Shown piece after piece: positions 10,639 to 56,290 of a DNA stretch of 64,000 nucleotides. A program made the translations under genes and the position numbers. The stretch covers positions 124,001-188,000 of the forward strand of contig RAZH01000008.1 of NCBI GenBank assembly GCA_003612585.1, in the 5' to 3' direction. Source of the stretch: a bacterium 1XD42-54 (GTDB lineage Bacteria; Bacillota; Clostridia; Lachnospirales; Lachnospiraceae). The notes under the pieces were generated by a model. The model had not been told where the DNA came from, did no database searches, and worked only from the letters and a program-made list of their open reading frames with translations. Position 1 is the first letter of the stretch; every line of letters starts with the position of its first letter.

Positions 10639-10681
10639 AAAGAGTAGATTATACATCAAATGTATAATCTACTCTTTTTTT
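10639..10681 (+). terminator. Strong intrinsic terminator after rny
   Basis: AGAGTAGATTATACAT (10641-10656) pairs perfectly with ATGTATAATCTACTCT (10660-10675) around a 3-base loop, followed by a T run to 10681. Confidence 0.92.
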
Positions 10682-10861: not shown

Positions 10862-10933
10862 GAAAACAAACAAAAGTAAACGAAAGAGATTGACACATTT
10901 ATGTACACAATATATAATCGAAAACAAACAAAA
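10862..10933 (+). promoter_or_regulatory. GH31 operon promoter flanked by a duplicated operator-like motif
   Basis: TTGACA (10890-10895), 17-base spacer and TATAAT (10913-10918) form a consensus promoter. The 14-mer GAAAACAAACAAAA occurs twice, at 10862-10875 just upstream of the -35 and at 10920-10933 just downstream of the -10. A near copy lies at 22252-22266 in front of the binding-protein operon. This arrangement suggests repression by the DeoR-type protein encoded at 21340. Confidence 0.7.
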
Positions 10934-10966: not shown

Positions 10967-12994
10967 ATGAAAGGAATTACCTGGAAGGAGAGAAATGCTC
11001 TTTGCTGGCGTTATGATACAGAGCTCATGCGAATTGAGACGTATGGTCAGAACAGCTTTAGAGTACGGATTACAAAAGAACCGGATTTTTCCCCAAGAGA
11101 CTGGGCGCTGATTGAGGTAGCGGAGCTCGAACCAGAGATTGAGGTCAATGAGAAGGGATTTACAGTTACCAATGGAAATCTGACAGCAAAGATGGATGAG
11201 TTTGGCGCATTGTCCTTTTATAAGGCTTCTGGTGAATTGCTGTTTGCGGAGCAGTGGCAGACAAGGGATGATCCGGCTAACCATATTCCGCTCATGTATT
11301 ACGGGCATGAGATTAGAAGGCATTTAGGTGAACGTTTGTCGAAATGTACCCTTCGGTTGGAGGCATATGAGGGAGAAAAATTTTTCGGACTTGGGCAGCA
11401 TCAGATTTCTCAACTAGATCTGAAAGGATGTCGGTTTGAACTGGCGCAGAGAAATTCTCAGGCAACGATTCCGTTTGTTGTATCCAATCGTGGCTATGGG
11501 TTTTTCTGGAACAATCCAGGCTATGGCAGCGTTACCTTTGCCAATAATATGACGGAGTGGATTGCAGAAGCATCCACAGATATTGATTACTGGGTAACTA
11601 CAGAGGAAACTCCGGCACAGATCGTTTCCAGATACACAGAAGTTACCGGAAGAGCCCCAAAATTCCCGGAATGGGCAGCCGGTTTCTGGCAATGCAAGCT
11701 TCGTTATAAGACACAGGATGAGCTGCTTAGTGTTGCACGCGAATATGTAAAGCGAGGGATTCCGTTGTCGGTTATTGTGATTGATTTTTTTCATTGGCCG
11801 CAGCAGGGTGACTGGAAGTTTGACAAGAAAAACTGGCCGGACCCGAAAGCTATGGTGGAAAAATTGCACAGTATGGGAATTGAGCTGATGGTTTCCGTAT
11901 GGCCGACTGTTGAACCCCGTTCTGAGAACTATGCAGAAATGAAAGCAAATGGTTATCTGATTCAAAGTGACCGTGGGGTTCGGACGAATTATATCTGCCT
12001 TGGCTCACCGGTTCATTACGATGCCATGAATCCAGGAGCACGTGCCTTTGTCTGGGACCGAATCAAAGAGAATTATCTGGACCCGTATGGCATCCGAATG
12101 TTCTGGCTGGATGAGACTGAACCAGAATATACTTTCTACGATTTCGATAATTACAGACACTATCTTGGAAGCAGTATGGAGGTCGGCAATTATTATCCAG
12201 TGGCCGCAGCACAGGGCTTCTATGAGGGAATGATTCAGTCGGGAATAAAAGATGTAATCAATCTTACGAGATGTGCCTGGGCGGGATGCCAGAAATACGG
12301 GGTTGTCTTGTGGTCCGGCGATATTCAGAGCAACTTCAAGATGCTGAAACTGCAGATCAAAGCCGGGCTCAACGCGGCTGTTTCAGGTATGGCTTGGTGG
12401 ACCACGGATATTGGCGGTTTCTACGGCGGTGATACGCAGTCGGCTTCTTTCAGAGAACTGTTGGTCCGCTGGTTTGAGTACGGTGTGTTCTGTCCGGTTC
12501 TTCGGCTTCATGGACACAGAAAACCGCTTGACGCGCCATCTGGTGAAGTGGAAGAGGTAGCGGATTCTGGTTTATTTGATGTAGAGTCCTGCGGTCCGAA
12601 CGAGCTTTGGAGCTTTGGCGAGGAAAACTACGGGATTCTTAAAAACATGGTTCTGCTCAGAGAAAGACTTCGTCCGTATGTGATGACTGCCATGGATCAG
12701 GCACATAAGACGGGAATTCCGCCGATGAGGCCGCTGTTTATGGATTTTTCTGAAGATATTTTTTGCTGGAGCGTCGAGGATGAATACATGTTTGGCGACG
12801 ATCTTCTGGTCGCACCGATCATGGATGAAGGCGCCCGAAGCAGAACGGTTTACCTGCCGTCAGGCCGCAGCTGGGTCAATGTTTATACGAAGGAACGTTT
12901 TGACGGCGGCCAGACGATCGAGTGCGCGGCGCCACTGGAATACATTCCGGTATTTGCCAGTGATGCGAAGCTGACAGAGCTTTTCCAAAGCTAA
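10967..12994 (+). CDS. Glycoside hydrolase family 31 enzyme (alpha-xylosidase/alpha-glucosidase type)
   Basis: GH31 enzymes release alpha-linked sugars (glucose, xylose, sulfoquinovose and others) from glycosides with retention. In this 675-residue protein the predicted nucleophile is D382 in MFWLDETEPEY and the acid/base is D452 in LWSGDIQSN. The WLDETEPE form resembles the alpha-xylosidase-like branch more than the WNDMNEP form of typical alpha-glucosidases. An N-terminal beta-sandwich precedes the barrel. There is no signal peptide, so it acts in the cytoplasm on imported glycoside. First gene of the island operon; RBS AAAGGAAAAG. Confidence 0.88.
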   Translation: MKGITWKERNALCWRYDTELMRIETYGQNSFRVRITKEPDFSPRDWALIEVAELEPEIEVNEKGFTVTNGNLTAKMDEFGALSFYKASGELLFAEQWQTRDDPANHIPLMYYGHEIRRHLGERLSKCTLRLEAYEGEKFFGLGQHQISQLDLKGCRFELAQRNSQATIPFVVSNRGYGFFWNNPGYGSVTFANNMTEWIAEASTDIDYWVTTEETPAQIVSRYTEVTGRAPKFPEWAAGFWQCKLRYKTQDELLSVAREYVKRGIPLSVIVIDFFHWPQQGDWKFDKKNWPDPKAMVEKLHSMGIELMVSVWPTVEPRSENYAEMKANGYLIQSDRGVRTNYICLGSPVHYDAMNPGARAFVWDRIKENYLDPYGIRMFWLDETEPEYTFYDFDNYRHYLGSSMEVGNYYPVAAAQGFYEGMIQSGIKDVINLTRCAWAGCQKYGVVLWSGDIQSNFKMLKLQIKAGLNAAVSGMAWWTTDIGGFYGGDTQSASFRELLVRWFEYGVFCPVLRLHGHRKPLDAPSGEVEEVADSGLFDVESCGPNELWSFGEENYGILKNMVLLRERLRPYVMTAMDQAHKTGIPPMRPLFMDFSEDIFCWSVEDEYMFGDDLLVAPIMDEGARSRTVYLPSGRSWVNVYTKERFDGGQTIECAAPLEYIPVFASDAKLTELFQS

Positions 12995-13026
12995 TAAAAC
13001 AAACTGGAGAAAGGAGGAATTCAGGT

Positions 13027-13860
13027 ATGATTGATATGACAACAAAAAAACCATTGGTCAATGGTGTTCAGATTCCGTGCCTGGCTTTTGGTACTTGTAC
13101 AGTTGAGCGTAAGCCATATGCGGGATATACCGTTGGTGCGGTTGAAAAAGCGCTTAGAAATGGATTTCGTCTGATCGATACAGCGACCTGCTATGAAAAT
13201 GAGGGGGAGGTCGGGCAGGCGATGCGTGAAAGCGGAATCGCCCGTGAGGATATTTTTGTTCTTACAAAAATGTGGAACGACAATATGCGTCAGGGAACAC
13301 AGCGCGAAGCGATTGAGTACAGCCTGAAAGAGTTGGATACAGATTATGTTGATGCATATCTGCTCCACTGGCCGGTTCCGGGGAAATATATTGAATCCTG
13401 GAAGTACATGGAAGAATTTTACGAGAAGGGCATGGCACGTTCGATCGGGGTCAGCAATTTTGAAATTGATCAGTTGGAGTCACTGTTTGCTTCTTGCAGA
13501 ATCAAGCCAATGATCAATCAGATTGAGGTACATCCGTATAATACACGCAAAGAACTGATTCACTTCTGCAAAGAAAATGATATTGCAGTTATGGCCTGGA
13601 GCCCATTACATCGGGGCCTGATTCTGAACGATCCAGTACTTGAAACAATTGCTGAAAAATACGGAAAAACAACGGCCCAAATCACACTCCGCTGGGATAT
13701 CCAGAATGGAGTGATTCCGATTCCTGGGGCAACAGATGAGGATTTGATCCGTCAGAATACGCAACTGTTTGATTTTGAACTTGTACAAGAGGAGATGGCG
13801 GCAATTGACGCTTTAAATCAGAACCTGTACGAAGGAGATCCACATAATTTTGATTGGTAA
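13027..13860 (+). CDS. Aldo/keto reductase
   Basis: NADPH-dependent reductase of the 2,5-diketo-D-gluconate reductase-like group. The catalytic tetrad is complete: D51 and Y56 in LIDTATCYENE, K81 in VLTKMW, H114 in YLLHWPVPG. The family signature VNGVQIPCLAFGT opens the protein and IPIPGATDEDLIRQN near the end fits the cofactor phosphate site. Length 277 is normal. It is 32 bases after the GH31 gene. In this context it may reduce a keto- or aldo-sugar, but the substrate is not visible from sequence. Confidence 0.88.
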   Translation: MIDMTTKKPLVNGVQIPCLAFGTCTVERKPYAGYTVGAVEKALRNGFRLIDTATCYENEGEVGQAMRESGIAREDIFVLTKMWNDNMRQGTQREAIEYSLKELDTDYVDAYLLHWPVPGKYIESWKYMEEFYEKGMARSIGVSNFEIDQLESLFASCRIKPMINQIEVHPYNTRKELIHFCKENDIAVMAWSPLHRGLILNDPVLETIAEKYGKTTAQITLRWDIQNGVIPIPGATDEDLIRQNTQLFDFELVQEEMAAIDALNQNLYEGDPHNFDW

Positions 13861-13883
13861 AAGGAAGAAAATGGAGGAAAAAA

Positions 13884-14543
13884 ATGGAGAAGAAATTAAG
13901 AATTGGTTTAATCTTGGATATGCATCCGTTTGATGAGATTTCATTCAAGAAAATGTTTGATGAGATGGAGGGAATAGAAGTGGTTCCCATGCTGCTGAAC
14001 AATTATCAGTATGATTATTCTGGAATTAACGACCAGTATGATGGATTTGTATTCTACAATATGTCCATGGAAACTCCTGATCCGGAGGAAACCTTTGCTG
14101 GCGGCCATAAGAAGGTCGGTGAGACGCTCTTTAAAATCGGTGAGAGCGGCCAGGGTATCGTTGTATTGCATCATGCGATTCTCTCCCATCCGGAATGGTC
14201 GGGCTGGAATGATCTGCTGAGTATTCCAGATCGCCGTTTTGATTACTTTGGCGGTGTAAATGTTGACATTCATGTAGCTGAACCGAATCATCCGATTGCA
14301 GAAGGCCTGAAAGATTGGAATATGATTGATGAAACCTTCCTGCTGCAGGATGCTGGTGAGGATTGCGACATTATTCTCAGCACAACCTGTGAAAAGAGTA
14401 TCAAGACTTTGGCATGGGCCAAGAGTTATAAGCAGTCCCGCGTATTTGCGATGTCTCTCGGACATGATGGAGTTGCATTCGGCAACGAATCCTTCAGAAA
14501 GGTTTTGAAAAATGCAATTGAATGGACCTGTAATAAGAGATAA
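13884..14543 (+). CDS. ThuA-like domain protein
   Basis: ThuA-like proteins have a class I glutamine amidotransferase-like fold and occur in catabolic loci for trehalose and keto-sugars; their exact chemistry is often unknown. Landmarks are IGLILDMHPFDEIS, YDGFVFYNMS, GIVVLHHAILSHPEW and the C-terminal RVFAMSLGHDGVAFGNESF. I start at ATG 13884 (219 residues) because GGAGG at 13873-13877 is well placed; an ATG at 13854 inside the previous gene is in frame. It sits 23 bases after the aldo/keto reductase. Confidence 0.82.
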   Translation: MEKKLRIGLILDMHPFDEISFKKMFDEMEGIEVVPMLLNNYQYDYSGINDQYDGFVFYNMSMETPDPEETFAGGHKKVGETLFKIGESGQGIVVLHHAILSHPEWSGWNDLLSIPDRRFDYFGGVNVDIHVAEPNHPIAEGLKDWNMIDETFLLQDAGEDCDIILSTTCEKSIKTLAWAKSYKQSRVFAMSLGHDGVAFGNESFRKVLKNAIEWTCNKR

Positions 14544-14558
14544 CTGAGGTGAGAACAA

Positions 14559-16481
14559 TTGGGAAATAATTTATTATTGGAGCAGATTAAAATCAGAAAC
14601 ACGGTCATGCGCAACCGCATCGTTATGGCTCCGATGGAAGCCAGGCTGAATATGCCAGATGGCGGCGTGAGCAAAGAAATGATCGAATATTATAAGGCGA
14701 GAGCACACGGCGGGGCGGGTGCAGTCATTATTGAGAATACATATATTGATGAATTTTCCAGCCGTTCAGGAATTATTTCTTCTGGTTTTTACAGTGATCA
14801 TATGATTGCAGGCAAGAGTTTGCTGGCTGATGCGATACGGGAGGAGGGGGCTTTGGCTATCATGCAGCTGTCACACGGCGGTCCGCAGGCAAATCCGGCG
14901 GCAAATAACAGCCCAGTCTTGTATCCGTCGCTGTATACGGCACCTTCTGCTGGAAAAGAATATCAGGTTCTTACAGAGGCACAGATTGGAGAGATTGAAG
15001 ACAGCTTTGCGCAGGCATCCCGAAGAGCCTGTTGGGCGGGTTTCAATGGTGTTGAATTCCATGCGGCACATGGCTACCTTCTGAGCTCTTTCCTGTCACC
15101 TCTAAGAAATCAAAGAGAGGACCAGTATGGCGGCAGCGTGGAAAACCGCGCGCGTATTCTGATCGAAGTGTTGAAAAAAGCAAGGAAGAATGTTGACTGC
15201 GATTTTATTCTTGGAGTCAGAATGAATATTTCGGATGGCCTCGAGGGCGGAATGACGGAGGAGCTGGCGGCAGAGACAGCAAAGCTGATTGCGCCGTATG
15301 TGGACTATATTAATCTTTCGGCAGGATTCAGCGAAACCTGCGGCAAGGTGATGATCACTCCGTGTTATGTGGATGCGCCTACGTTAGCTTCACAAATCCG
15401 AAATGTATATCAGGAGATCAAAGATTTGGTGCCCGTGTTTGGCGTTGGAGCGCTGGATTACAAATCCGGTGAGGAATGTTTGGAGCAGGATTGCTTTGAT
15501 GCAGCTGTTTTTGGGCGTGCGTTTATTGCAGATCCGGATTGGCCCAATAAGTTAAGCAGTGGAGAGGCAGCGGACATCAGACCGTGCTGCCGCGGCAATG
15601 AAGGATGTTTTTCACGTATGCTGAAAGGACTTCCGGTTCGCTGTGAGTTAAATCCTGCGGCAGGACAGGAAGAAAAATATCAGCTGAAGAAGGCCAAAAA
15701 GAAAAAAAGGATCATTGTAGTCGGCGGAGGTACGGCTGGTATGGAATGTGCCCGGATCGGTGCATTGCAGGGACATGAGATGGTTCTGTTTGAAAGCAGC
15801 GGCCGGCTCGGCGGACATCTGAATGAAGCCGGTGTTCCGGCATTCAAGGCCGGGCTCAGGAGATTTATGGAATGGCAGATTCGTCAGATGAAAAAGCTGA
15901 ATGTCAACGTTCGCCTGAACAGAAGGGTAAGCGCAGAAGAAATACAGAATATGCAGTTTGATCACGTCATTGTTGCAGTCGGTTCGAACTATATTGTTCC
16001 GCCAATCAAGGGGGTGGAGCGTGCTATCAAGCCGGATTGTTACGATACAGAGCAGATGAAGGATAAATATGTTGCGGTGATCGGTGGAGGTATGGTTGGC
16101 GCAGAGACCGCACTGCACCTTTCTGGAGAGAAGGTAAAGGGTGTGGCTGTTCTGGAAATGCGCGATGCAATCGCACCAGAGCATGACCCTGTTGCCAGAC
16201 AGATCCTGGCAGACAAGCTGGAGCAGAATGGTGTTAAAGTGCTGCTTGGCTGCAGAGCCTCTGCAATTGAAGAAGAGCGGATTCTTTATTTGGATGAGAA
16301 TGGGGAGACAAAAGAAGTCCGGGCCGAGGCAGTTATTTTAGCTACCGGTTTGAGAGCAGACAGTGAGCAGGTAAGTGCGTTCAGGAAACTTCCGAACGCA
16401 GTATGTGTCGGCGACTGCATTAAGGCTGGCAAGGTATACCATGCGACACATGAAGCTTGGAAGGCAATGCTTAATTTATAG
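14559..16481 (+). CDS. NADH:flavin oxidoreductase, old yellow enzyme / 2,4-dienoyl-CoA reductase type
   Basis: A three-part flavoprotein of 640 residues like BaiCD/BaiH and 2,4-dienoyl-CoA reductase: FMN TIM barrel (residues 1-330, with MQLSHGGPQANP and EFHAAHGYLLSSFLSPL), an iron-sulfur segment (about 340-365), and a dinucleotide-binding part with VVGGGTAGMECARIG and VIGGGMVGAETALHL. Such enzymes reduce activated C=C bonds. The cysteine spacing is unusual: C343, C344, C350 and C362 are present, but the expected second ligand at 346 is glycine. Start is TTG 14559 after GAGGTGAG. Confidence 0.88.
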   Translation: MGNNLLLEQIKIRNTVMRNRIVMAPMEARLNMPDGGVSKEMIEYYKARAHGGAGAVIIENTYIDEFSSRSGIISSGFYSDHMIAGKSLLADAIREEGALAIMQLSHGGPQANPAANNSPVLYPSLYTAPSAGKEYQVLTEAQIGEIEDSFAQASRRACWAGFNGVEFHAAHGYLLSSFLSPLRNQREDQYGGSVENRARILIEVLKKARKNVDCDFILGVRMNISDGLEGGMTEELAAETAKLIAPYVDYINLSAGFSETCGKVMITPCYVDAPTLASQIRNVYQEIKDLVPVFGVGALDYKSGEECLEQDCFDAAVFGRAFIADPDWPNKLSSGEAADIRPCCRGNEGCFSRMLKGLPVRCELNPAAGQEEKYQLKKAKKKKRIIVVGGGTAGMECARIGALQGHEMVLFESSGRLGGHLNEAGVPAFKAGLRRFMEWQIRQMKKLNVNVRLNRRVSAEEIQNMQFDHVIVAVGSNYIVPPIKGVERAIKPDCYDTEQMKDKYVAVIGGGMVGAETALHLSGEKVKGVAVLEMRDAIAPEHDPVARQILADKLEQNGVKVLLGCRASAIEEERILYLDENGETKEVRAEAVILATGLRADSEQVSAFRKLPNAVCVGDCIKAGKVYHATHEAWKAMLNL

Positions 16482-16494
16482 GAGGAAACGGGAA

Positions 16495-17208
16495 ATGAAA
16501 AAGAAAATTACAGTACAGGATGTAGCCGATGTATTGGATCATTCTCTGCTGCGCCCGGATATTACAGTCAGCGAACTGGTAGAGGGCTGTACCCTGGCTA
16601 AGGAATACAAAACAGTATCTGTCTGTGTCAGACCGTCTGATTTGCCGATTGTCTGCAAGGAACTTGAGGGAACCAAGGTACTTCCGACAACAGTTATCGG
16701 CTTCCCGCACGGGACCTGTACAACGGAAACAAAGGTATTTGAAACCGTTGATGCTGTAAACAAAGGGGCAGTTGAAGTAGACATGGTCATGAATATCGGT
16801 CGTTTTTTGAGCGGTGAATATGATTATGTCGCCAGAGATATTGCAGAAGTGGCTGCAGCTGCACATGAGGGAAATGCGAAGCTGAAGGTGATTTTTGAGA
16901 ATCATTATCTGACCGATGAGCAGATTGTAAAAGCCTGCGAGATTGCAAAGGCAGCCGGCGCTGATTTTATTAAGACCTCAACAGGCTACGCAGGCTCCGG
17001 TGCAAAGCTTCCTGATCTGAAGATTATGGTCGATCATGCAGACGGCATGCTGGTTAAGGCAGCCGGCGGTGTAAAGACCCTGGATGACTGTCTGGCCATT
17101 ATGGCTCTGGGAGTTGTCCGCTGCGGCACCCGTTCTTCTAAGGCTATTCTGGAGGAGGCCTGCGTGCGTGCAAAAGACGGGCAGTTATTTTTGAATACAG
17201 AAGAATAA
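16495..17208 (+). CDS. DeoC-family class I aldolase
   Basis: Deoxyribose-phosphate aldolase family enzyme that cleaves a sugar phosphate through a lysine Schiff base. K160 in DFIKTSTGY is the predicted Schiff-base lysine, with K188 in VKAAGGVK and D96 in VEVDMVMNIG as partners, all as in E. coli DeoC. Length is 237. The start at 16495 follows GGAGGAAA at 16481-16488. Because it sits in a sugar island with a kinase and not with nucleoside genes, its substrate may be another deoxy- or keto-sugar phosphate. Confidence 0.88.
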   Translation: MKKKITVQDVADVLDHSLLRPDITVSELVEGCTLAKEYKTVSVCVRPSDLPIVCKELEGTKVLPTTVIGFPHGTCTTETKVFETVDAVNKGAVEVDMVMNIGRFLSGEYDYVARDIAEVAAAAHEGNAKLKVIFENHYLTDEQIVKACEIAKAAGADFIKTSTGYAGSGAKLPDLKIMVDHADGMLVKAAGGVKTLDDCLAIMALGVVRCGTRSSKAILEEACVRAKDGQLFLNTEE

Positions 17209-17229
17209 TGAACGAAAGGATGGAGGGTA

Positions 17230-18756
17230 ATGGGGCGAAAAATCATTGGCTGGGATTTAGGGACTGGCGGAAATAAGGCTTCTTTGTATGACGAATCCGG
17301 AATGTGTCTGGCATCGGAATTTGTTTCATACGATACATATTATCCACAGCCGGGCTGGCATGAACAGCGTCCGGATGACTGGTGGGAGGCTGTAAAGGAA
17401 AGCACGAAGAGACTACTCAGGAGTACGTCCATTAATCCGGAAGAGGTTGTATGCTGCGGTATTTCCGGACATAGCCTCGGCGCTGTTCCGATTGGCAAAG
17501 ACGGCGGGCTGCTTCGTGAAAGAACTCCAATCTGGTCAGATACCAGAGCAGTGAAACAGGCAAATGAGGTGTTTTCCCGGTATGCGGAAGAAGACTGGTA
17601 TATGCTGACTGGCAACGGATTTACTCCGGCAATGTATGCAGCTTTTAAAATCCTTTGGTACAGGGATGAAGAACCGGCTATGTTTGAGCAGATTGATAAA
17701 GTGATCGGAACAAAGGACTATGTCAATTACAAATTGACGGGGCGCCTGGCAACGGACCCTTCGTATGCATCCGGCTATGGCGTATGGGATCTGAAAGCGT
17801 GGAACTATTCTGATGAACTGATCAAGGCCATGGGACTTCCGGCAGAGATTTTCCCGGAAGTAGTACCATCCACACAGGTGATTGGCAAGATCAGAGGAGA
17901 AGTGGCCGCAGAGCTGGGGCTTTCTGCCAATACCTCAATTGTAGCCGGAGGCGTAGATAATTCCTGCATGGCGCTTGGGGCAAAAGCTTTTCGCGAGGGA
18001 AGAGTTTACAATAGCCTTGGTTCATGCTGCTGGATTGCAGTGTCAAGTAAAGCGCCTCTTTTGGAACAGACATCACGCCCATATGTTTTTGCACATGTGG
18101 TCCCTGAGTATTATGCATCCGCTCTTTGTATTACTTCCGGCGGAACAAGCTTTCGCTGGGTTCGCGACCAGCTCTGTAAAGATCTGATGAAGCAGGCTGA
18201 TGAGAGTGGTGAGGATGTTTACGATCTGATGGGAAAAGAGGCGGAAGGCGCAACTGGTGCAGACAGTATGATTTTCAATCCAAGTCTGGGCGGCGGCATG
18301 CCGATGGATAAGAGCGCCAATGTCCGCGGAGGATATGCAGGACTGGATCTTTCACATACCCGTGCGGACATGATCCGCGCCGCTATGGAGGGTATCGCAT
18401 TCGGACAGCGTGCATGTCTGGATAAGATTCGCGAACTGACTGACATTGAGGAAGATATTCTTCTGGTCGGCGGAGGCAGTAAGAGCGCGCTCTGGTGTGA
18501 GATTTATGCAAATATCTATCGTGCTACGGTTCTGAAATCAAATATTGATCAGCAGGCAGCTGCTCTTGGTGCAGCAGCCTGTGCGGCCGTTGGCTATGGT
18601 TTGTGGGAAGACTTTGACCGAATTGACGAGCTGCATGAGATTGAAGCAGTCATTGCTCCGAATCCGGAGGCTGTGGAAAAATATAATCATCAGTACGGGT
18701 TCTACCAGTCATTGAATGATTCGCTGTGTGATCTGAGTGATCAGATGAATGTGTAG
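17230..18756 (+). CDS. FGGY-family carbohydrate kinase
   Basis: ATP-dependent sugar or polyol kinase of 508 residues. N-terminal phosphate-binding GWDLGTGGNKASLYDESG, hinge-region GVDNSCMALGAKAF and the C-terminal FGGY signature around DILLVGGGSKSALWCEIYAN are all present. The closest well-known relatives by eye are xylulokinases, but the substrate is open. It lies 21 bases after the aldolase with GGAGGG as RBS. Phosphorylation before aldol cleavage is the likely role. Confidence 0.88.
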   Translation: MGRKIIGWDLGTGGNKASLYDESGMCLASEFVSYDTYYPQPGWHEQRPDDWWEAVKESTKRLLRSTSINPEEVVCCGISGHSLGAVPIGKDGGLLRERTPIWSDTRAVKQANEVFSRYAEEDWYMLTGNGFTPAMYAAFKILWYRDEEPAMFEQIDKVIGTKDYVNYKLTGRLATDPSYASGYGVWDLKAWNYSDELIKAMGLPAEIFPEVVPSTQVIGKIRGEVAAELGLSANTSIVAGGVDNSCMALGAKAFREGRVYNSLGSCCWIAVSSKAPLLEQTSRPYVFAHVVPEYYASALCITSGGTSFRWVRDQLCKDLMKQADESGEDVYDLMGKEAEGATGADSMIFNPSLGGGMPMDKSANVRGGYAGLDLSHTRADMIRAAMEGIAFGQRACLDKIRELTDIEEDILLVGGGSKSALWCEIYANIYRATVLKSNIDQQAAALGAAACAAVGYGLWEDFDRIDELHEIEAVIAPNPEAVEKYNHQYGFYQSLNDSLCDLSDQMNV

Positions 18757-18776
18757 TTTTTATGAGGTGAGAAAGA

Positions 18777-19733: not shown

Positions 19734-19775
19734 TAAAGATGAACAGATGGGTTAAAAAACAGAACTGGTAAACAG

Positions 19776-19817
19776 TCAGACCGGTTCAATCGCGCAGATT
19801 CGATCAAACCGGTCTGA
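19776..19817. terminator. Hairpin between convergent genes
   Basis: TCAGACCGGTT (19776-19786) pairs perfectly with AACCGGTCTGA (19807-19817). It sits in the 88-base gap between the dehydrogenase and the convergent ABC ATPase gene. No proper T tract adjoins it on either strand, so its efficiency as a bidirectional terminator is unclear. Confidence 0.55.
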
Positions 19818-19821
19818 GAAG

Positions 19822-21336
19822 TCAAATGGTTGAAGTTTCGCTGAATTTCAATTTTTCTTGATAAACGGACATGGCAATCGCATATTCTGAAAGTTGTGGC
19901 TTACACAGTTCTGCGCTAATTTTGCCGTCTTGCAGGATCAGTACCCGGTCACACATACCTGCCAGCTCTGAGAAATCAGAGGAACACAGCAGGAGCGCGT
20001 TTCTTTTGGACACGTAGGAATTGAATAGATTATAAATGTCGACCTTTGAGTAGGAATCGAGGATTTTGGTTGGTTCATCAGCAACGATGATTCTTGTGTT
20101 GCTGAACAGGAGCCTTGCCAGAATAATCTTCTGTTGTTCGCCGAAGCTGAATTTATGAAGTGGTTTATCGGCTTCAGAGATGTTCAAAAGAGCTAAATAG
20201 TGATTACCGATTTTCAGCTCCTTTTGACCATTGACAAAGGATAAATCTGAAACAGCATTCAGATCGGAAATTGTAATATTGGAAGTCGGAACCATTGCCG
20301 GGAAAATGTTTTTCTGAGGCTCGTCGGAAATGTAACCGATGTGTTCATTCGCTGCCTGTGCAGGATTAAAGATCAGACTGCCACTGGAATGAGAGTAGAT
20401 CGTTCCTCTTTTCAGCGGATTGACACCAATAAGAGCCTGCGTGAGTTGGGTTCTGCCTGAACCGGCTGCTCCTGCGATACCTAGGATTTCACCGGCATGC
20501 AGCGTGAAGCTGATCCCAGATAAAGTGTGATTTCTGGTGGTAAGATCAGTGACTGTCAAAAGGTCCTCGCACGGAACGGAATGTCCGGGAAACCTGGGAT
20601 AGGCGAGTTTTCGAATATTGGTTCCGTACATGTAGCTGGCAATATCTTTCGTATTTAAGTCGGATTGATCAAGCGTCAGATAACGGTCTTTTCCACAGAT
20701 AATGGTAATACGATCTGCCAGTGAAACGATTTCTGAAATTTGATGTGAAAAATAGAGTAAAGTGATTTTTTCCTGTTTCAGCTTGTTCAGGAACAGATTG
20801 AACTGGTGCATATGTATTCCATGAATGTCAAATCCGCCGTCATCCCAGATCAGAATATCTGGCATGATGATGTAAGCAATCATCATTTCGACTAGTTGTT
20901 TTTCGGCAAGAGAGAGAGCACTGACAAAAGTATCAAGCTCGAAACTTACCTGAAATTCATCCAGAAATTTCATGGCAAGGGAACGGATAGACTTCTGGGA
21001 ACGGGCGTCCATGCAATAGACATAGATATTGTCGAATACTGTCATATTATCAAACAAGCCGACATTTTGACGAATCGTATGAATTCTGTGTTTTTTTGCG
21101 GGAATGAGAGCACCCGGATGATAGACAGTATCCCCAATGGTAATTGTCCCGTTCTGAAAAGGAAGCAGACCGGACAAAATTCGGACCAGGGTACTTTTGC
21201 CGGCAGCGTTCTGTCCGAGCAGATAGTGTACTTCACCGGGAAGTATCTCCAGATTGAAATCAGTGAAAATCGTTTGGTCAGTAAAAGAAAAGGACATATT
21301 CCGGAAAAAAATGCTGCTGTGGGTTTTTAAATCCAT
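19822..21336 (-). CDS. RbsA-like duplicated ABC ATPase, partly degenerate
   Basis: A 504-residue two-domain ATPase of the sugar ABC family (RbsA/MglA). Domain 1 has a good Walker A (GQNAAGKST) but a changed Walker B, ILIWDDGGFD, where the usual sequence is DEPTS, so the catalytic glutamate is replaced by aspartate. Domain 2 has the usual degenerate Walker A (GAAGSGRTQ) and an intact ADEPTKILD. No permease or binding protein accompanies it on this strand. Its AGGAGG lies in the last codons of the upstream DeoR-type gene, three bases from its ATG. It may have a regulatory role or serve as an alternative ATPase. Confidence 0.85.
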   Translation of the reverse strand: MDLKTHSSIFFRNMSFSFTDQTIFTDFNLEILPGEVHYLLGQNAAGKSTLVRILSGLLPFQNGTITIGDTVYHPGALIPAKKHRIHTIRQNVGLFDNMTVFDNIYVYCMDARSQKSIRSLAMKFLDEFQVSFELDTFVSALSLAEKQLVEMMIAYIIMPDILIWDDGGFDIHGIHMHQFNLFLNKLKQEKITLLYFSHQISEIVSLADRITIICGKDRYLTLDQSDLNTKDIASYMYGTNIRKLAYPRFPGHSVPCEDLLTVTDLTTRNHTLSGISFTLHAGEILGIAGAAGSGRTQLTQALIGVNPLKRGTIYSHSSGSLIFNPAQAANEHIGYISDEPQKNIFPAMVPTSNITISDLNAVSDLSFVNGQKELKIGNHYLALLNISEADKPLHKFSFGEQQKIILARLLFSNTRIIVADEPTKILDSYSKVDIYNLFNSYVSKRNALLLCSSDFSELAGMCDRVLILQDGKISAELCKPQLSEYAIAMSVYQEKLKFSETSTI

Positions 21337-21339
21337 ATG

Positions 21340-22167
21340 TTATTCCTCCTGAATGATCGGCTGATCAAGGTCATTTTCGAAAGCGGTAAACAATTTAATC
21401 CCGGAATCAAAGCAATGCTTTTTAAAGCCATTGGGAATGTTTGACGTAGTTATGATGGTCTGTGCTTCACAAAGATCTGCCAGATGATACAAGGAACGCT
21501 TGTTGAATCTGGAAGATTCAAATAAAAAGATTACTTCATCACTTTGCTTTTTAAGATGCGTATACAGATTTGTGATTTCGTTGATGGAGATCATCAGGCC
21601 CTGTTCGAACGATACCGCATCAACGCCCACAAATGCCTTATTAATGTACAGCGTATCCAGGAAATGATCGGAAGCTGTTCCATAGTAGGCGTGGATTCCG
21701 TTGACATTGTAGAGCTGTCCGCCGAGCGAGAACAGCGTAACGAATGGTACGGAAGACAGGCACACGGTGATATAAAGGCAGTTCGTAATCACAATTACAT
21801 GGGAAAGTTGCCGGCTCTTTTTCAACTCGTCAGCAATAAAACAGCCAAAGTCATCTCCGCCGAGGAAGATGATGTCTTCATTTTGGATATATTGTGTACA
21901 AAGTGCAGAGATTTTCAGCTTTTCTTGAGAACGCGGGACCGGACAGCTAAGCTGCAGTGCTGTTTGTTTGGGTAAAGCAGCGGGGGATTCCTTCAGAACT
22001 GCACCGCCGAACTGCCGTACCAGAAAGCCTTCCTGTTCAAGCTGTTCAAGATCCTTGCGAATTGTAACTTCTGTTACATGAAGCAGTTTGGAGAGCGAAG
22101 AAACTGTGATCCTTTTATGTTCCAATAGCTGTTTGCGAATTTCATTTTGCCGTTCAGTTACAAACAT
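21340..22167 (-). CDS. DeoR-family transcriptional regulator
   Basis: The protein has 275 residues: an N-terminal DeoR winged helix (RQNEIRKQLLEHKRITVSSL then LLHVTEVTIRKDLEQLEQEGFLVR) and a C-terminal sugar-phosphate sensor domain with FLGGDDFGC and FVGVDAVSFEQGLM. Such proteins usually repress sugar operons until a phosphorylated intermediate binds. It is divergent from the binding-protein operon and co-transcribed with the degenerate ATPase. It is the best candidate to bind the GAAAACAAA-type motifs at 10862, 10920 and 22252. Confidence 0.9.
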   Translation of the reverse strand: MFVTERQNEIRKQLLEHKRITVSSLSKLLHVTEVTIRKDLEQLEQEGFLVRQFGGAVLKESPAALPKQTALQLSCPVPRSQEKLKISALCTQYIQNEDIIFLGGDDFGCFIADELKKSRQLSHVIVITNCLYITVCLSSVPFVTLFSLGGQLYNVNGIHAYYGTASDHFLDTLYINKAFVGVDAVSFEQGLMISINEITNLYTHLKKQSDEVIFLFESSRFNKRSLYHLADLCEAQTIITTSNIPNGFKKHCFDSGIKLFTAFENDLDQPIIQEE

Positions 22168-22211
22168 ATCTTCTCCTAAATGGAAATTTTATTATTAATT
22201 ACAGTAAGTAT

Positions 22212-22266
22212 AGTATAGCAAAAGAGGAAAAAAAACACAAGTATTCGAAATGAAAACAAAACAAAG
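22212..22266 (-). promoter_or_regulatory. Promoter of the DeoR-ATPase unit with shared operator-like motif
   Basis: On the reverse strand TTGTGT (22240-22235) and TATACT (22217-22212) are 17 bases apart. Directly upstream of this -35, between the divergent genes, is GAAAACAAAACAAAG (22252-22266), which resembles the duplicated motif at the GH31 promoter. No good -35 is visible for the forward binding-protein gene; its -10 may be TATAAA at 22283-22288. Confidence 0.6.
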
Positions 22267-22320
22267 TACAGGTATTATGTGATATAAAACAATAAAAATA
22301 AGAAAAGGAGAAACAAAACA

Positions 22321-22368
22321 ATGAAAAAAACAATGAAAAAAACAATGAAAAAAACAATGAAAAGAGCA
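22321..22368 (+). repeat. 12-bp in-frame tandem repeat at the start of the binding-protein gene
   Basis: ATGAAAAAAACA is repeated exactly three times (22321-22356), followed by a fourth imperfect unit ATGAAAAGAGCA (22357-22368) and another ATG. Each unit encodes MKKT, so the signal peptide n-region is a repeat with four or five alternative in-frame start codons. Confidence 0.95.
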
Positions 22369-23295
22369 ATGACAACCATCGTGACATTGGGACTGGCAAT
22401 GGGGACGGCTTTCTGCGTACAGGCTGCAGAAGGTGAGAAACTAGTTGGCGTATCCGTATCAGATTACTCGAACATTGGACTGCGTCTGCTTTGTGATACG
22501 ATCGCAGAGAGACTGACAGAAGCAGGATATTCGGTAGTAGAATTGGATGGGAAAGAGGATCAGGCAGTTCAGATCGGTGATATTGAAGACATTATCAATC
22601 AGGGGGCTGAAATGATTATTTGTGCAGCTGTTGACTCTATTGGTATTCGGCCGGCTGTTGAGGCGTGCAATGCGGCTGGGATTCCGTATCTGAATATAAG
22701 CCAGTTCCTGGATGATTCACTGCTTGATCAGATTGCGGGTGATATCACCGCAGATAATTATTCAGCGGGATATACTCTTGGTGAAATTATGGCTGAAGAT
22801 CTGGGTGGAGCAGGCGATGTTGCTATGTATACGTTTAATTCATCCTTCGTTTGTGCAAACCGTTCGGACGGTTTTCGAGATGCGTTGAGCCAGTATCCGG
22901 AAATTCATATAGTAGAAGAGTTTGATGGTCTTGATGTTGCTGTTGAGTCTGGCCTTAAATTTGCTGAGGACTGCCTCCAGAAATATCCGGAACTGAAGGG
23001 CGTCTTTTGTGTGAACACAAACATTGGTGTAGGTGTGGCAGCCGCTATGGAATCAGCAGGAAAGAGCGGGGATACCTTTGTTGTTAGTATTGACGGGTAC
23101 GAGGGTGAGCTAAAAGCTATGGCAAATGGTTCTCTGGATGCCACTGCAATCTATCCAATGCGTGAGATGGCTGATATCGCCTCTGAGTATGCGCTTACTA
23201 TTCTTGAAACCGGTACAACTCCGGATAAGCCGGAACTGAATTTCACCGTTGTTACAGAAGAAAACTACGAAGAACTGAAAAATTACTGGAACTAA
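22321..23295 (+). CDS. Sugar ABC transporter substrate-binding protein
   Basis: Periplasmic-binding-protein type 1 fold (ribose-binding family), 324 residues. The N-terminus has the repeated MKKT n-region, a hydrophobic core (IVTLGLAMGTAF) and an AxA-like cleavage site before AEGEK. A classic lipobox is not evident, which is unusual for a Gram-positive binding protein. Ligand-binding landmarks include QGAEMIICAAVDS, NRSDGFRDAL and VSIDGYEGELKAM. First gene of the transporter operon; RBS AAAAGGAGA at 22303. Confidence 0.9.
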   Translation: MKKTMKKTMKKTMKRAMTTIVTLGLAMGTAFCVQAAEGEKLVGVSVSDYSNIGLRLLCDTIAERLTEAGYSVVELDGKEDQAVQIGDIEDIINQGAEMIICAAVDSIGIRPAVEACNAAGIPYLNISQFLDDSLLDQIAGDITADNYSAGYTLGEIMAEDLGGAGDVAMYTFNSSFVCANRSDGFRDALSQYPEIHIVEEFDGLDVAVESGLKFAEDCLQKYPELKGVFCVNTNIGVGVAAAMESAGKSGDTFVVSIDGYEGELKAMANGSLDATAIYPMREMADIASEYALTILETGTTPDKPELNFTVVTEENYEELKNYWN

Positions 23296-23326
23296 TTTTG
23301 GCTGTGCTTTGAGGGTAATGCTCATA

Positions 23327-23359
23327 CTGGGGCGGCAAAGAGTTGCTTTGCCGCCCCAG
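23327..23359 (+). other. Intra-operon GC-rich hairpin
   Basis: CTGGGGCGGCAAAG (23327-23340) pairs perfectly with CTTTGCCGCCCCAG (23346-23359) around five bases, in the 88-base gap between binding-protein and ATPase genes. There is no T tract. Such hairpins commonly protect the 3' end of the abundant binding-protein mRNA while letting some transcription through. Confidence 0.8.
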
Positions 23360-23383
23360 TGCTTCAAACGAGGAGAACACGAC

Positions 23384-24898
23384 ATGAACGAACACAAGAT
23401 TTTGGAAATGAAGCAGATCAGTAAAAGTTTCTCTGGTGTCCAGGTTCTGAATAATGTTGACTTATCTCTTTATCCAGGAGAGGTTCGGGCTCTGGCTGGA
23501 GAAAATGGTGCCGGCAAATCGACACTGATGAAGATTCTCGGCGGAATTTACACAAAGGATACAGGGGAGATATACGTTGACGGAAAGCTTCAGGATATTT
23601 CATCTGTAGAGGTTGCAAAGGAGTTGGGTATTGCTATTATCCATCAGGAGATCGTTTTGGTTCAGGATATGTCTATTGCAGAGAATATTTTCCTGGGCAG
23701 AGAACATTCCGCTGGATATGGACTGGTCAATTTCAGAAAAACATATGAAGAAACACAAAAGCTGATTGACAGACTGGAAATCAGGGGGGTTACTCCGCAG
23801 ACAATGGTAAAGGAGCTGAGTATTTCTCAGCAGCAGATGGTCGAGATTGCACGTGCACTTTCTACAAATGCAAGAATCATCGTAATGGACGAGCCAACTT
23901 CTTCATTGACTGACAGTGAGGTCACTAAGTTGTTTGAACAGATTAGACAGCTTAAAAAAGATGGTATTGCGATGATTTATATCTCTCATAAAATGGACGA
24001 AATTTTTGAAATTGCGGATCGTATCACAGTCATGCGTGACGGATGCCATATTATGACGGAGTCCATTGCAGACACGAATTACGATCAAATCATCCGCAGT
24101 ATGGTAGGACATGAGATCACCGACTATTATCCTGAATTCAGGGCACAGCCGGGGGATGTCATTCTGGAGGTAAAGAATTTAACAACAGACCGGGTCAAGG
24201 ATATTTCATTCTCGATTCGAAAGGGAGAGATTCTGGGACTGTCCGGACTGGTAGGAAGCGGCAGAACTGAGCTGGCAGAGGCATTGTTCGGTATTGATCC
24301 GATTCATTCCGGCGAGATTTTGCTGAATGGGGAAAAGATTTCTGCCTTATCTCCAGAGGAGGCAATCAAAGCTGGCATTGCAATGGTACCGGAGGATCGC
24401 AAAGACAAAGGTCTGTTTTTAACGAATACAATCAATTTTAATATGACAATCACTGTGATCGATCGATTGATCTCAAAGCTGATCTGTAATAAAGAAAAAG
24501 AAAAGAAGATGCTTGATTCATATATCAATCAGCTGCATATAAAAATGGCCAATTTGGAGCAGAGTGTAATTGAGCTGAGCGGAGGAAATCAGCAAAAAGT
24601 GGTTATCTCCAAATGGCTGGCAACAGAACCGAGTGTACTTATTTTAGATGAGCCGACCCGAGGAATAGATGTAGGCGCGAAATCAGAGATCTATCATCTG
24701 ATGGTTAAGATTGCCGAAATGGGTGTGCCGATCATTATGATTTCATCGGAACTGCCGGAAATTATGAATCTGAGTTCAAAAATTGCAGTTATGTGTGAAC
24801 GAAAGCTGGTAAAGATATTTGACCTAGCAGAGGAAACACCAACACAGGAAACTATTATGCATTATGCCACAGGAGGTTATCGAAATGAAAAAAAGTGA
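23384..24898 (+). CDS. Sugar ABC transporter ATP-binding protein (RbsA/MglA-like)
   Basis: The canonical 504-residue duplicated ATPase of this transporter. Domain 1: Walker A GENGAGKST, signature LSISQQQMVEI, Walker B VMDEPTSSL. Domain 2: GLVGSGRTEL, LSGGNQQKV and LILDEPTRGID. All catalytic residues expected for RbsA are present, in contrast to the paralog at 19822. I start at ATG 23384 after AGGAG; the longer frame begins inside the hairpin region. Its stop overlaps the permease start by 14 bases. Confidence 0.94.
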   Translation: MNEHKILEMKQISKSFSGVQVLNNVDLSLYPGEVRALAGENGAGKSTLMKILGGIYTKDTGEIYVDGKLQDISSVEVAKELGIAIIHQEIVLVQDMSIAENIFLGREHSAGYGLVNFRKTYEETQKLIDRLEIRGVTPQTMVKELSISQQQMVEIARALSTNARIIVMDEPTSSLTDSEVTKLFEQIRQLKKDGIAMIYISHKMDEIFEIADRITVMRDGCHIMTESIADTNYDQIIRSMVGHEITDYYPEFRAQPGDVILEVKNLTTDRVKDISFSIRKGEILGLSGLVGSGRTELAEALFGIDPIHSGEILLNGEKISALSPEEAIKAGIAMVPEDRKDKGLFLTNTINFNMTITVIDRLISKLICNKEKEKKMLDSYINQLHIKMANLEQSVIELSGGNQQKVVISKWLATEPSVLILDEPTRGIDVGAKSEIYHLMVKIAEMGVPIIMISSELPEIMNLSSKIAVMCERKLVKIFDLAEETPTQETIMHYATGGYRNEKK

Positions 24899-25871
24899 CA
24901 CGGGAAATTTTGCACGGAACAATCCAGTCGGACGTTTCATCAGCCGGAATGCAATGATTCTATCCGCGCTGATCGTGATGGGTATTGTGCTGTCTCTGAT
25001 CAGCAGTTCGTTCTTTTCCAGTGCAAATGTGTTATCTGTTTTACGACAGGCGAGCACCAATGCGATTTTGTCGATGTCAATGGCAATGGTATTAATCATA
25101 GGATGTATTGATCTTTCTATCAGCAGTTCACTGGCTTTAAGCGGCGCGTTATGTGTCATTATGATCAACAACGGGGTTCCGATTTATTTAGCGCTTGCAG
25201 TGACTCTGGTATTTGGAGCTTTTTGCGGGCTTCTCAATGGTGTTATGGCAGCTTTTACCGATATCCCGCCGTTTATCATTACGCTGGCTACGCAGCAGTG
25301 TTTCCGAGGAGCAGCTTACCTGCTGACCGATGGCCGAACTATTATGTGCTACGACGACACTTTTACAAAGATCGGTGCCGGCAGCTTTCTTGGGATTCCA
25401 GTGCCGGTTGTTATTGTTCTAATCGTTCTTGTTATTGCTGCTATTATTCTCAGCAAATCCAAATTCGGAAGAAGAATGTACGCGATCGGCGGCAATAAAT
25501 CAGCGGCTGTTTATTCCGGTATCAAGGTTAAAAAAGTAACTGTGATCGTATACGTGCTTACGGGAACCTTGGCTTCTCTGGCAGGTATTGTGCTTTGCTC
25601 GAGAACCTATTCTTGTCAGCCGACAGCCGGTACCGGATATGAGTGTGACGCGATCGCAGCAGCTGTTCTGGGCGGCGTCAGCTTTAATGGAGGCGTTGGT
25701 ACGGCCGGCGGAGTTATGCTGGGGTCACTGGTTATTGCTTTTTTGAATAACGGCCTGAATATGCTGCATGTGCATGCATATTGGCAAACTATTGCAAAAG
25801 GTATTGTTATTCTGATCGCTGTTTTCTTTGATACCATGAAGGTTGAAAAGATGAGAGGAAGAAAGGTATAA
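24885..25871 (+). CDS. Sugar ABC transporter permease (RbsC-like)
   Basis: Membrane component of 328 residues with eight to ten hydrophobic helices and the family landmarks ANVLSVLRQASTNAILSMSM, GRRMYAIGGNKSAAVYSGI and AAAVLGGVSFNGGVG. The start at 24885 lies inside the ATPase gene and is preceded by AGGAGG at 24871-24876, indicating coupled translation. With the two preceding genes it forms a complete importer for a monosaccharide or small glycoside. Confidence 0.94.
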   Translation: MKKSDTGNFARNNPVGRFISRNAMILSALIVMGIVLSLISSSFFSSANVLSVLRQASTNAILSMSMAMVLIIGCIDLSISSSLALSGALCVIMINNGVPIYLALAVTLVFGAFCGLLNGVMAAFTDIPPFIITLATQQCFRGAAYLLTDGRTIMCYDDTFTKIGAGSFLGIPVPVVIVLIVLVIAAIILSKSKFGRRMYAIGGNKSAAVYSGIKVKKVTVIVYVLTGTLASLAGIVLCSRTYSCQPTAGTGYECDAIAAAVLGGVSFNGGVGTAGGVMLGSLVIAFLNNGLNMLHVHAYWQTIAKGIVILIAVFFDTMKVEKMRGRKV

Positions 25872-25881
25872 GGTAGAAACT

Positions 25882-26835
25882 ATGAGAGCAGTTTTTGTTG
25901 AGAAATATAATCAGTTAGCTGTAAAAGATGTTCCGGTTCCGCAGATAAAAGCGAATGAAGCGCTGGTCCGAATGGAGATTGCTAATATCTGCAGCCAGAC
26001 AGATACACATATGCTGCAGGGAATCTATGACTGTGGCAAGAAACCGCCGTTTATTCTGGGACACGAGGCTGCCGGACAGATTGTAGAGGTTGGTGAACTG
26101 TTGAAGGGACGTTTTCAAGTCGGTGATCGGGTGGCCTACAAAGGAATGTATGGCGTGATGGCTGAATATGCAGCCATTCCGGAAAATGAAATGGTTAAGA
26201 TACCGGACACGGTCAGCTATGAGGCAGCTTCTATGTTTGAAGTCTCTGCCTGTGCTTATGCACTGATCAGACAGACTGTGCAGATGGGAGATAAGGTGCT
26301 CCTGATCGGCCAGGGCTGTGCAGGGCTTCTGGGGACTATTTTTGCAAAGATTGCAGGAGCTGCTCAGGTCATTGCAGTGGATATCAATGAATATAAGCGG
26401 ATACTTGCAAAAAAATACGGCGCTGACGTGGTGCTTGATCCTGCGCAGGCAGACTATGAGGAACAGTTGAGCAGGCTGTCCGGGGGAAAAGGGTTTGATG
26501 CAGTGGTGGATTTTGCAGGTATCCCGTCTACCATGAATTCCTGTGTTCAGTGGATGCGAAAGCAGGGAAGAATCGGGATGTTCGGAGTCAACTGTAAACC
26601 GTTTGCTTTTGATTTCTTTCAGCTGCATGACAAAGAAGGAGTGATCTATACTGCCGGACATGAGTACGATTATAATGAGATTCCGTACAGAAAAATGTTG
26701 GATTTTACGCTTTCCGGACAGATTGACCTGCATGATTTTGTCACGCACAAAATCAAGCTGGAGAATGTACAGAAGGGATTTGACATGATACGGGACAAGG
26801 ATGAGACCGTGCTGCGTATTGGCCTGATTCCGTGA
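25882..26835 (+). CDS. Zinc-type medium-chain dehydrogenase (second copy)
   Basis: A 317-residue paralog of the dehydrogenase at 18777. It keeps C37 (ICSQTDTH), H61-E62 (LGHEAAG), the glutamate of MFEVSACAY and the cofactor loop GQGCAG, and also lacks the structural zinc lobe. It follows the permease by ten bases. Having one copy at the end of each operon suggests either two oxidation steps on related intermediates or two substrates fed into one pathway. Confidence 0.87.
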   Translation: MRAVFVEKYNQLAVKDVPVPQIKANEALVRMEIANICSQTDTHMLQGIYDCGKKPPFILGHEAAGQIVEVGELLKGRFQVGDRVAYKGMYGVMAEYAAIPENEMVKIPDTVSYEAASMFEVSACAYALIRQTVQMGDKVLLIGQGCAGLLGTIFAKIAGAAQVIAVDINEYKRILAKKYGADVVLDPAQADYEEQLSRLSGGKGFDAVVDFAGIPSTMNSCVQWMRKQGRIGMFGVNCKPFAFDFFQLHDKEGVIYTAGHEYDYNEIPYRKMLDFTLSGQIDLHDFVTHKIKLENVQKGFDMIRDKDETVLRIGLIP

Positions 26836-26850
26836 TAAGAGAAACTAAAA

Positions 26851-27006
26851 ATGAGAGAATACTATGAAAACATGAGTGCTGTGCAGCTGCGTGAATATGT
26901 GGGAGATATTTCTCAGCTTGCCAACGCGCGCGAAGGAAGGCTGACCGACGGACGTTCGGACGGTATGCGGAGGCAGAAAAAGGGCTTGCACATTATACAC
27001 CTATGA
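26851..27006 (+). pseudogene. Remnant resembling the N-terminus of a DUF4432 (aldose 1-epimerase-like) gene
   Basis: A 51-codon frame starts 15 bases after the dehydrogenase. Its residues 8-39 (MSAVQLREYVGDISQLANAR, then EGRLTDGRSDGM) resemble from memory the start of DUF4432 proteins, which are about 350 residues long. It then ends in unrelated sequence and a stop. The rest of the gene is missing, so I read this as a deletion remnant. A functional peptide is possible but less likely. Confidence 0.5.

Positions 27007-53898: not shown

Positions 53899-56290
<2,392 letters not shown>

Follow-up and report, generated by a model that had tools for sequence, protein, structure and literature searches.

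The window analyzed here, a stretch of 64,000 nucleotides from the Lachnospiraceae bacterium 1XD42-54 (contig RAZH01000008.1, positions 124,001 to 188,000), carries a sugar or glycoside locus of 13 open reading frames (ORFs), listed with the associated signals in Table 1. All the families that a sequence-only reading had named at positions 10967–26835 were recovered as ORFs with Pfam matches; that reading had passed over a minus-strand DeoR gene, a second, divergent sugar-type ABC ATPase (the orphan ATPase) and, likewise, a DUF4432 stump. Operon A, on the plus strand, runs in the order GH31, AKR, ThuA, OYE, DeoC, FGGY, and MDR1, with intergenic gaps of 13–32 bases, and operon B, on the same strand, consists of the genes for a binding protein, an ATPase, a permease, and MDR2. 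The orphan ATPase and DeoR genes form a minus-strand pair between the two, converging on operon A and divergent from operon B.

Table 1. Genes and sequence signals of the locus, in window coordinates.
Feature	Position	Strand	Basis
GH31 hydrolase	10967..12994	+	Pfam PF01055/PF21365/PF13802
Aldo-keto reductase (AKR), Dkg-like	13027..13860	+	Pfam; DkgA/DkgB cut-offs not reached
ThuA-family protein	13884..14543	+	PF06283, 70.3 bits
OYE/BaiCD-type two-part flavoprotein	14559..16481	+	Pfam Oxidored_FMN + pyridine-nucleotide reductase half
DeoC variant (deoxyribose-phosphate-aldolase family)	16495..17208	+	TIGR00126; VCVRP, FPHGTCTT, GTRS
FGGY kinase, GHSLG motif, xylulokinase-like	17230..18756	+	Below XylB cut-off; tree
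MDR dehydrogenase 1 (MDR1), short form, 318 residues	18777..19733	+	Pfam
Inverted repeat, probable two-way terminator	19777..19816	.	Folding energy vs shuffles
Orphan divergent CUT2-type ATPase paralogue	19822..21336	-	Pfam; alignment
DeoR-family regulator	21340..22167	-	Pfam; best NCBIfam match AgaR
CUT2 substrate-binding protein	22321..23295	+	PF13407
CUT2 importer ATPase	23381..24898	+	Pfam
CUT2 importer permease (BPD_transp_2)	24885..25871	+	Pfam
MDR dehydrogenase 2 (MDR2)	25882..26835	+	Pfam
DUF4432 N-terminal stump, broken off	26851..27003	+	tblastn
Promoter-like TTGACA-17-TATAAT	10890..10918	+	12/12 match
Two exact GAAAACAAACAAAA copies, candidate DeoR operator	10862..10933 (10862-10875, 10920-10933)	+	Motif count

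Conservation beyond the window was seen for a smaller core, the kinase and the adjacent variant aldolase of operon A. The FGGY kinase scored 334.2 bits against the XylB model TIGR01312, under the cut-off of 380.25, and carries GHSLG where the best XylB of the same genome (L174) has GQMHG; QMHG is the substrate motif of E. coli XylB. On both score and motif, its identification as XylB was rejected. A further FGGY kinase gene lies in the window outside this locus (54812–56212), with an NQRET motif that we take to be glycerol-kinase-like. The available part of PMC3245297, on the evolution of FGGY kinases, makes no mention of a GHSLG group. The DeoC variant passed TIGR00126 (204.8 bits, cut-off 117.3) and matched no other NCBIfam model, and it retains EVDM, FIKTSTG, and VKAAGG, the catalytic motifs of deoxyribose-phosphate aldolase (DERA). 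One of its loops reads GTRS, compared with GTSS and GVSA in two solved homologues. VCVRP or CCVRP, FPHGTCTT, and GTRS were present in all four members of its clade, whereas the genome's other DeoC (L172) has VCVNT, FPLGAM, and GAGN at those sites; the arginine of the C-terminal loop is not confined to the clade, as two other aligned DeoC sequences have one after a two-residue insertion. Because the genome encodes another, higher-scoring DeoC and two XylB proteins over the cut-off, all outside the locus, the cluster copies of kinase and aldolase look dedicated to it.

The search for relatives of the kinase covered 199 further genomes from the family and 172 from the class. The closest loci, termed type 1, came from three genomes that represent two genera besides that of the window: L161 in G825, of the same family, and L187 in G423 and L189 in G496, both of another family. 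Their kinases are 67.9% (G423), 66.5% (G496), and 61.3% (G825) identical to that of the window and their aldolases 77.7%, 77.7%, and 57.7%, respectively, and in concordant trees the window clusters with L161, L187, and L189, with support of 100/100 in the kinase tree and 96/95 in the DeoC tree. Judging from these sequences, the kinase–aldolase pair co-descends with that of the type 1 loci. Each of these loci has its kinase gene near genes for DeoC, a CUT2 importer, and two SDRs; the SDRs were called with Pfam in G825 and G423, and those of G496 were recognized from their similarity to the G423 pair (88% and 95% identity). The type 1 binding proteins are 62–81% identical to each other, and a DUF4432 gene, longer than the stump in the window, is present in the G496 and G825 loci. 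Separately, a large gene is interposed between DeoC and FGGY in G423 (L187:7440-9701) and G496 (L189:10729-12906); its product, of 753 residues in G423 and 86% identical in G496, fuses LacI DNA-binding, periplasmic-binding, and extracellular solute-binding domains according to Pfam on the G423 copy.

Two established kinds of kinase–aldolase chemistry have to be weighed against these data. We know of no FGGY deoxyribokinase; in a route for 2-deoxyribose or a 2-deoxy-sugar glycoside, the FGGY enzyme would take the place of DeoK, DeoC would be a true aldolase, and the DUF4432 protein of the relatives would be a mutarotase. The TIGR00126 match and the retained lysine and aspartate motifs agree with such a route, and the sequence of kinase and DeoC yielding acetaldehyde and glyceraldehyde 3-phosphate is already known (available text of PMC6365646), but the variant clade departs from the second DeoC of this genome at VCVRP, FPHGTC, and GTRS, and the route needs no pair of dehydrogenases, so that we regard it as unlikely. 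We are similarly doubtful about a ketose-1-phosphate route of the FucK–FucA kind, in which dehydrogenases would produce a ketose from a polyol or sugar for phosphorylation by the FGGY kinase and the aldolase would release dihydroxyacetone phosphate (DHAP) and an aldehyde. An SDR of the G423 locus passes the cut-off for the GolD/DthD dehydrogenases (343.7 vs. 286 bits), a family with a polyol role, and this score leaves polyol or ketose entry possible. DERA-type enzymes, however, use aldehyde donors. The 6-deoxyhexose routes covered in the available part of PMC6079011 share the kinase and aldolase layout and yield DHAP and lactaldehyde, but their aldolases are class II metal enzymes.

A second, divergent arrangement, termed type 2, occurs in three more genera from this family (G740, G743, and G851; loci L164–L166). 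One side carries DeoR, the orphan ATPase, and an FGGY kinase 45–47% identical to that of the window, and the other side a binding protein, an AP_endonuc_2 protein, an MDR, a permease, an ATPase, and a single-domain OYE, with Pfam run on the G740 copies. The orphan ATPase relatives (L164:8235-9737, L165:8398-9858, and L166:7997-9463) stand between DeoR and FGGY in each. G507, from another family, encodes an FGGY kinase (54% identity) and a DeoC (33%) within one 20-kb stretch that also holds OYE, MDR, and AP_endonuc_2 genes, the products of which share 64, 62, and 55% identity with their G740 counterparts.

All matches of at least 45% identity in the family and class searches, 11 loci besides the window, were taken as the sample of the kinase clade. 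DeoC-family genes were present in six of these loci, MDR genes in six, OYE genes in four, and DeoR genes in four (one at 26%). CUT2 ATPase and permease genes were present in eight, a generous count given that those of L162 lie approximately 7 kb from the 48% identical kinase and closer to another FGGY gene. GH31 and ThuA were found in none of the 11 loci and AKR in one (26% identity). An OYE-family gene thus lay near the clade kinase in 4/11 loci (stretches of 12–20 kb), compared with 0/20 control stretches around GH31 relatives; three of the four represent one orthologous locus, which also carries DeoR and the orphan ATPase. No orthologs of the window's OYE or of either MDR were found in the genomes sampled, where only the best three (OYE) or best five (MDR1) candidates per genome were considered and an ortholog could be missed. 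As a whole, the locus turned up neither in the genus genomes nor in the class sample searched. By its sequence relationships, the window locus is a mosaic with a type 1 core, the DeoR, orphan ATPase, OYE, and MDR families of type 2, and GH31, AKR, and ThuA genes seen in neither type.

The co-conservation of eight families, which the sequence-only reading had put forward as a check on an undescribed pathway, is therefore rejected over 20 GH31, 6 OYE, and 11 kinase-clade neighbourhoods. The same reading had stated that a failure of the genes to co-occur elsewhere would count against it; in the genomes sampled this is the case for the full set but not for a conserved core composed of the kinase, aldolase, importer, and dehydrogenases. 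It had called an OYE flavoprotein unusual in a sugar operon; the four clade loci indicate that the association is not unique. It had also suggested an unsaturated or deoxy-sugar intermediate, or an aglycone that is reduced.

The two operons are tied together by their dehydrogenases, since the paralogues MDR1 and MDR2, 54% identical, close one operon each, and MDR1 is otherwise unmatched: besides MDR2, nothing matched it in 390 further class genomes (E <= 1e-50, best five candidates per genome) or in 46 congeners (E <= 1e-40). Plasmid searches with MDR1 and ThuA returned, among the matches listed, only distant ones (<=34% identity). In the alignment, both MDRs are without the cysteine-rich lobe of the L164 and L165 MDRs, which we take to hold the structural zinc. 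Another tie is the stump directly after MDR2, which matched the DUF4432 protein of L189 (26851–26970; 47.5% over 40 residues, E = 4.6e-7 in a tblastn search of the whole window) and that of L161 (38% over 55 residues, E = 2.2e-7). DUF4432 proteins are mutarotase-like, and their presence in two related loci separately links operon B to the pathway family of the operon A kinase and aldolase. The available text of PMC5570504 names a DUF4432 protein, with nothing more.

Further genes between and within the operons concern regulation and uptake. The best NCBIfam match of the DeoR protein was AgaR, at 127 bits against a cut-off of 260. The orphan ATPase may serve as an additional importer subunit or have a regulatory role; it has divergent signature motifs and no second permease gene beside it, both in the window and in the three type 2 genera. 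Eight of the 11 related loci encode a main CUT2 ATPase with which the importer ATPase shares 36–47% identity. The binding-protein gene opens with four 12-base repeats resembling ATGAAAAAAACA (22321–22368), each with an in-frame ATG, that encode MKKTMKKTMKKTMKRAM; its product was 28% identical over 186 residues to the L161 protein, and the other two type 1 binding proteins gave no match at 1e-4.

The promoter-like site of operon A is the sole 12/12 site listed in the region, with 48 bases between its end and the GH31 start codon; promoter-like sites in total showed no excess (25 vs. 28.5 in shuffles). An exact copy of GAAAACAAACAAAA stands on either side of it, these being the two matches within one mismatch across the window, where 0.08 were expected, and the pair is a candidate DeoR operator. 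An AgaR-like operator pattern had no site within one mismatch in the regulatory gaps, where only two-mismatch sites were found. The repeat between the convergent MDR1 and orphan ATPase genes is a probable two-way terminator (-24.8 kcal/mol for 19752–19822, z = -5.14, with 0/200 shuffles as good). Upstream, another terminator-like hairpin with a T tail lies at 10639–10677, between operon A and the preceding gene, which we take to be RNase Y-like. When the operon A promoter was compared with the gap between the DeoR and substrate-binding protein genes, matches of lengths 20, 24, and 28 were equalled by 11, 5, and 2 of 60 Markov-model randoms, and the gapped alignment by 13/200. In comparisons with the gaps upstream of DeoR in L164, L165, and L166, which are A- or T-rich, the promoter was equalled by 7, 0, and 16 of 200 randoms and the window's own gap by 14, 61, and 41 of 200.

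This weak operator link, together with the lack of recurrence of the full set in any examined locus, would be expected if the operon from GH31 to MDR1 were unrelated to the DeoR and importer operon and the two were neighbours by chance. That explanation leaves aside the MDR paralogue pair spanning both operons, the joint recurrence of the kinase, importer, DeoR, and orphan ATPase in three other genera, and the DUF4432 stump joining operon B to loci that hold the operon A kinase and aldolase, and we consider it quite improbable.

The OYE flavoprotein carries HAAHGYL and an altered Fe-S motif, CCRGNEGC (residues 343–350), in which the position of the second cysteine is occupied by glycine in the window and by cysteine (CxxC) in 33/33 other aligned rows; six of the 70 OYE loci mentioned below were offered to this alignment. 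With BaiCD, bilirubin reductase, and 2,4-dienoyl-CoA reductase it has in common the two-part architecture and the HxxHGYL motif. Its identification as BaiCD or bilirubin reductase was rejected, the scores being below the NCBIfam cut-offs (420.5 vs. 825 and 375 vs. 750 bits), and across the 2,4-dienoyl-CoA reductase-type set it reached at most 420.5 bits against cut-offs of 750–825. It also differs from the BaiCD-type flavoproteins in its location in a sugar operon and in the missing cysteine, because of which its electron path may differ from that of BaiCD. No relative above 35% identity was found in 97 other near relatives (E <= 1e-60) and none above 37% among 390 further class genomes (E <= 1e-80, best three candidates per genome), and a search of genome contigs gave 70 loci, all at <=34% identity. 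Neighbourhoods were examined for six OYE relatives, against the far longer match list of the class search.

The closest solved relative of the GH31 protein is the alpha-xylosidase MeXyl31 (5zn6), matched over nearly the full length (E = 9.5e-242), and the motifs FWLDETEPE (from residue 379) and LWSGDIQSN (from residue 448), whose aspartates are the GH31 nucleophile and acid/base, align with it. No signal peptide was evident by eye. The gene context of the window, in contrast, was shared by none of the 20 GH31 relatives fetched (47–53% identical, stretches of 4.8–19 kb, taken from a longer match list), which contained at most generic ABC ATPases, one FGGY gene (30%), and one partial AKR gene (28%). 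The AKR scored 235.6 bits for DkgA (cut-off 425) and 206.5 for DkgB (cut-off 327). ThuA had matches in 3/294 other genomes of the order, two at 30–33% near full length and one partial. The genes of its nearest two relatives (L004:1495-3033 and L005:638-2139) directly adjoin AP_endonuc_2 TIM-barrel genes, a pairing reminiscent of keto-sugar metabolism, and are also near an ORF that by eye resembles the end of a sugar-binding protein.

These genes invite comparison with an oxidoreductive xylose route, in which GH31 would free D-xylose, the AKR would reduce it to xylitol, an MDR would form D-xylulose, and the FGGY kinase would give xylulose 5-phosphate, with DeoC, OYE, and ThuA as side activities. 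The AKR and MDR families, both present in the window, include xylose reductases and xylitol dehydrogenases; in addition, MeXyl31 is the solved structure nearest to GH31 and XylB the nearest model for the kinase. Nevertheless, the kinase falls under the XylB cut-off and has GHSLG instead of GQMHG, the genome has two other kinases that exceed this cut-off, and the partner of the kinase in the closest loci is DeoC rather than an AKR or MDR. As DeoC, OYE, and ThuA would also be unaccounted for, this route is quite unlikely.

Taken together, we favor, with a probability of roughly 60%, the view that the region serves the inducible breakdown of a single small glycoside or sugar derivative that the cell imports. 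The gene content, the operon layout, and the DeoR and CUT2 classes of the regulator and importer are read directly from the DNA; for the substrate and the order of steps, we infer the following scheme. The CUT2 importer would take up the compound intact, and the cytoplasmic GH31 would cleave its alpha-linkage. The two MDRs, perhaps standing in for the SDRs of the type 1 loci, would set the oxidation state together with the AKR and OYE. The GHSLG-type kinase would then phosphorylate the resulting product, and the DeoC variant would cleave it, releasing a triose phosphate and a short aldehyde. ThuA might act on a keto-sugar step, by analogy only.

Several observations weigh against this scheme. 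FGGY kinases phosphorylate mostly ketoses and polyols, which fits awkwardly with DERA chemistry on a 2-deoxy-aldose phosphate. Operon membership alone places GH31, AKR, and ThuA in the same pathway, since no shared context was seen in the loci examined. The OYE and MDRs of the window, at only 24–35% identity to those of type 2, are family matches and not orthologs. Additionally, the imported compound is probably different from that of type 1, because the binding proteins are poorly matched; the examined 48 kb of G423 yielded no DUF4432 gene; and the operators, as described above, connect the operons weakly.

A speculative variant, which we consider very unlikely, has the locus make its own deoxy-sugar. 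Loss of water, or of the glycosidic partner, from an MDR-derived keto-sugar would produce an enone, whose C=C bond the OYE would reduce to yield a 2-deoxy sugar; the GHSLG kinase would phosphorylate it, and the DeoC variant would release acetaldehyde and triose phosphate. If true, this would be a reductive sugar-deoxygenation route doubling as an electron sink in an anaerobe, and in no fewer than three other genomes the kinase–aldolase relatives would work on different entry substrates.

Returning to the catabolic locus as favored here, it is real and well bounded, and it belongs to inducible kinase–aldolase sugar catabolism rather than to a new class. The best handle on it is the kinase–aldolase pair and not the list of eight families. 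The pair is kept at up to 68% and 78% identity while the dehydrogenases, regulators, and entry enzymes differ between loci, which points to one central reaction of sugar catabolism in this bacterial class. A function assigned to these two small soluble proteins could extend to four loci in one step and would contribute to explaining the role of an OYE in a sugar operon. As for earlier descriptions, no title or abstract start reported this gene set; most subscription papers and all bioRxiv preprints not in PMC lay outside the scope, and this is weak evidence of absence.

When compared to known systems, the locus remains, as the sequence-only reading had proposed, a compact catabolic locus that matches no known pathway among those tested here. 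With the DeoK–DeoC pathway it shares a sugar kinase and a DeoC-family aldolase passing TIGR00126. DeoK, however, is a PfkB-family kinase, whereas the window kinase is FGGY and no PfkB protein is encoded among the 13 ORFs; moreover, the window adds dehydrogenases, GH31, ThuA, and OYE, and its DeoC is of the variant clade. The Lsr operon for autoinducer-2 (AI-2) likewise combines a CUT2 importer, an FGGY kinase, and a DeoC/LacD-superfamily aldolase in one locus, but the window kinase reaches 197.4 bits against a cut-off of 528 for the AI-2 kinase (NF008187), and the only NCBIfam model that the aldolase matches is that of deoxyribose-phosphate aldolase. The thu operon, which serves in 3-keto disaccharide use, has a ThuA-family protein within a sugar operon as well, while its ThuB, a Gfo/Idh-family dehydrogenase, has no counterpart among the 13 ORFs. 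Finally, the A. tumefaciens operons for beta-elimination of 3-keto-glycosides (OGE, PUE, and levoglucosan; available text of PMC10628242) resemble the locus in placing redox steps around glycoside cleavage and, through the AP_endonuc_2 genes, the surroundings of the two nearest ThuA relatives; the 13 ORFs of the window include neither AP_endonuc_2 nor Gfo/Idh, and the cleavage enzyme is a GH31. On the features tested, the locus was rejected as an Lsr, thu, or 3-keto-glycoside elimination operon, and its nearest counterparts are the type 1 loci with which it shares the kinase–aldolase pair.

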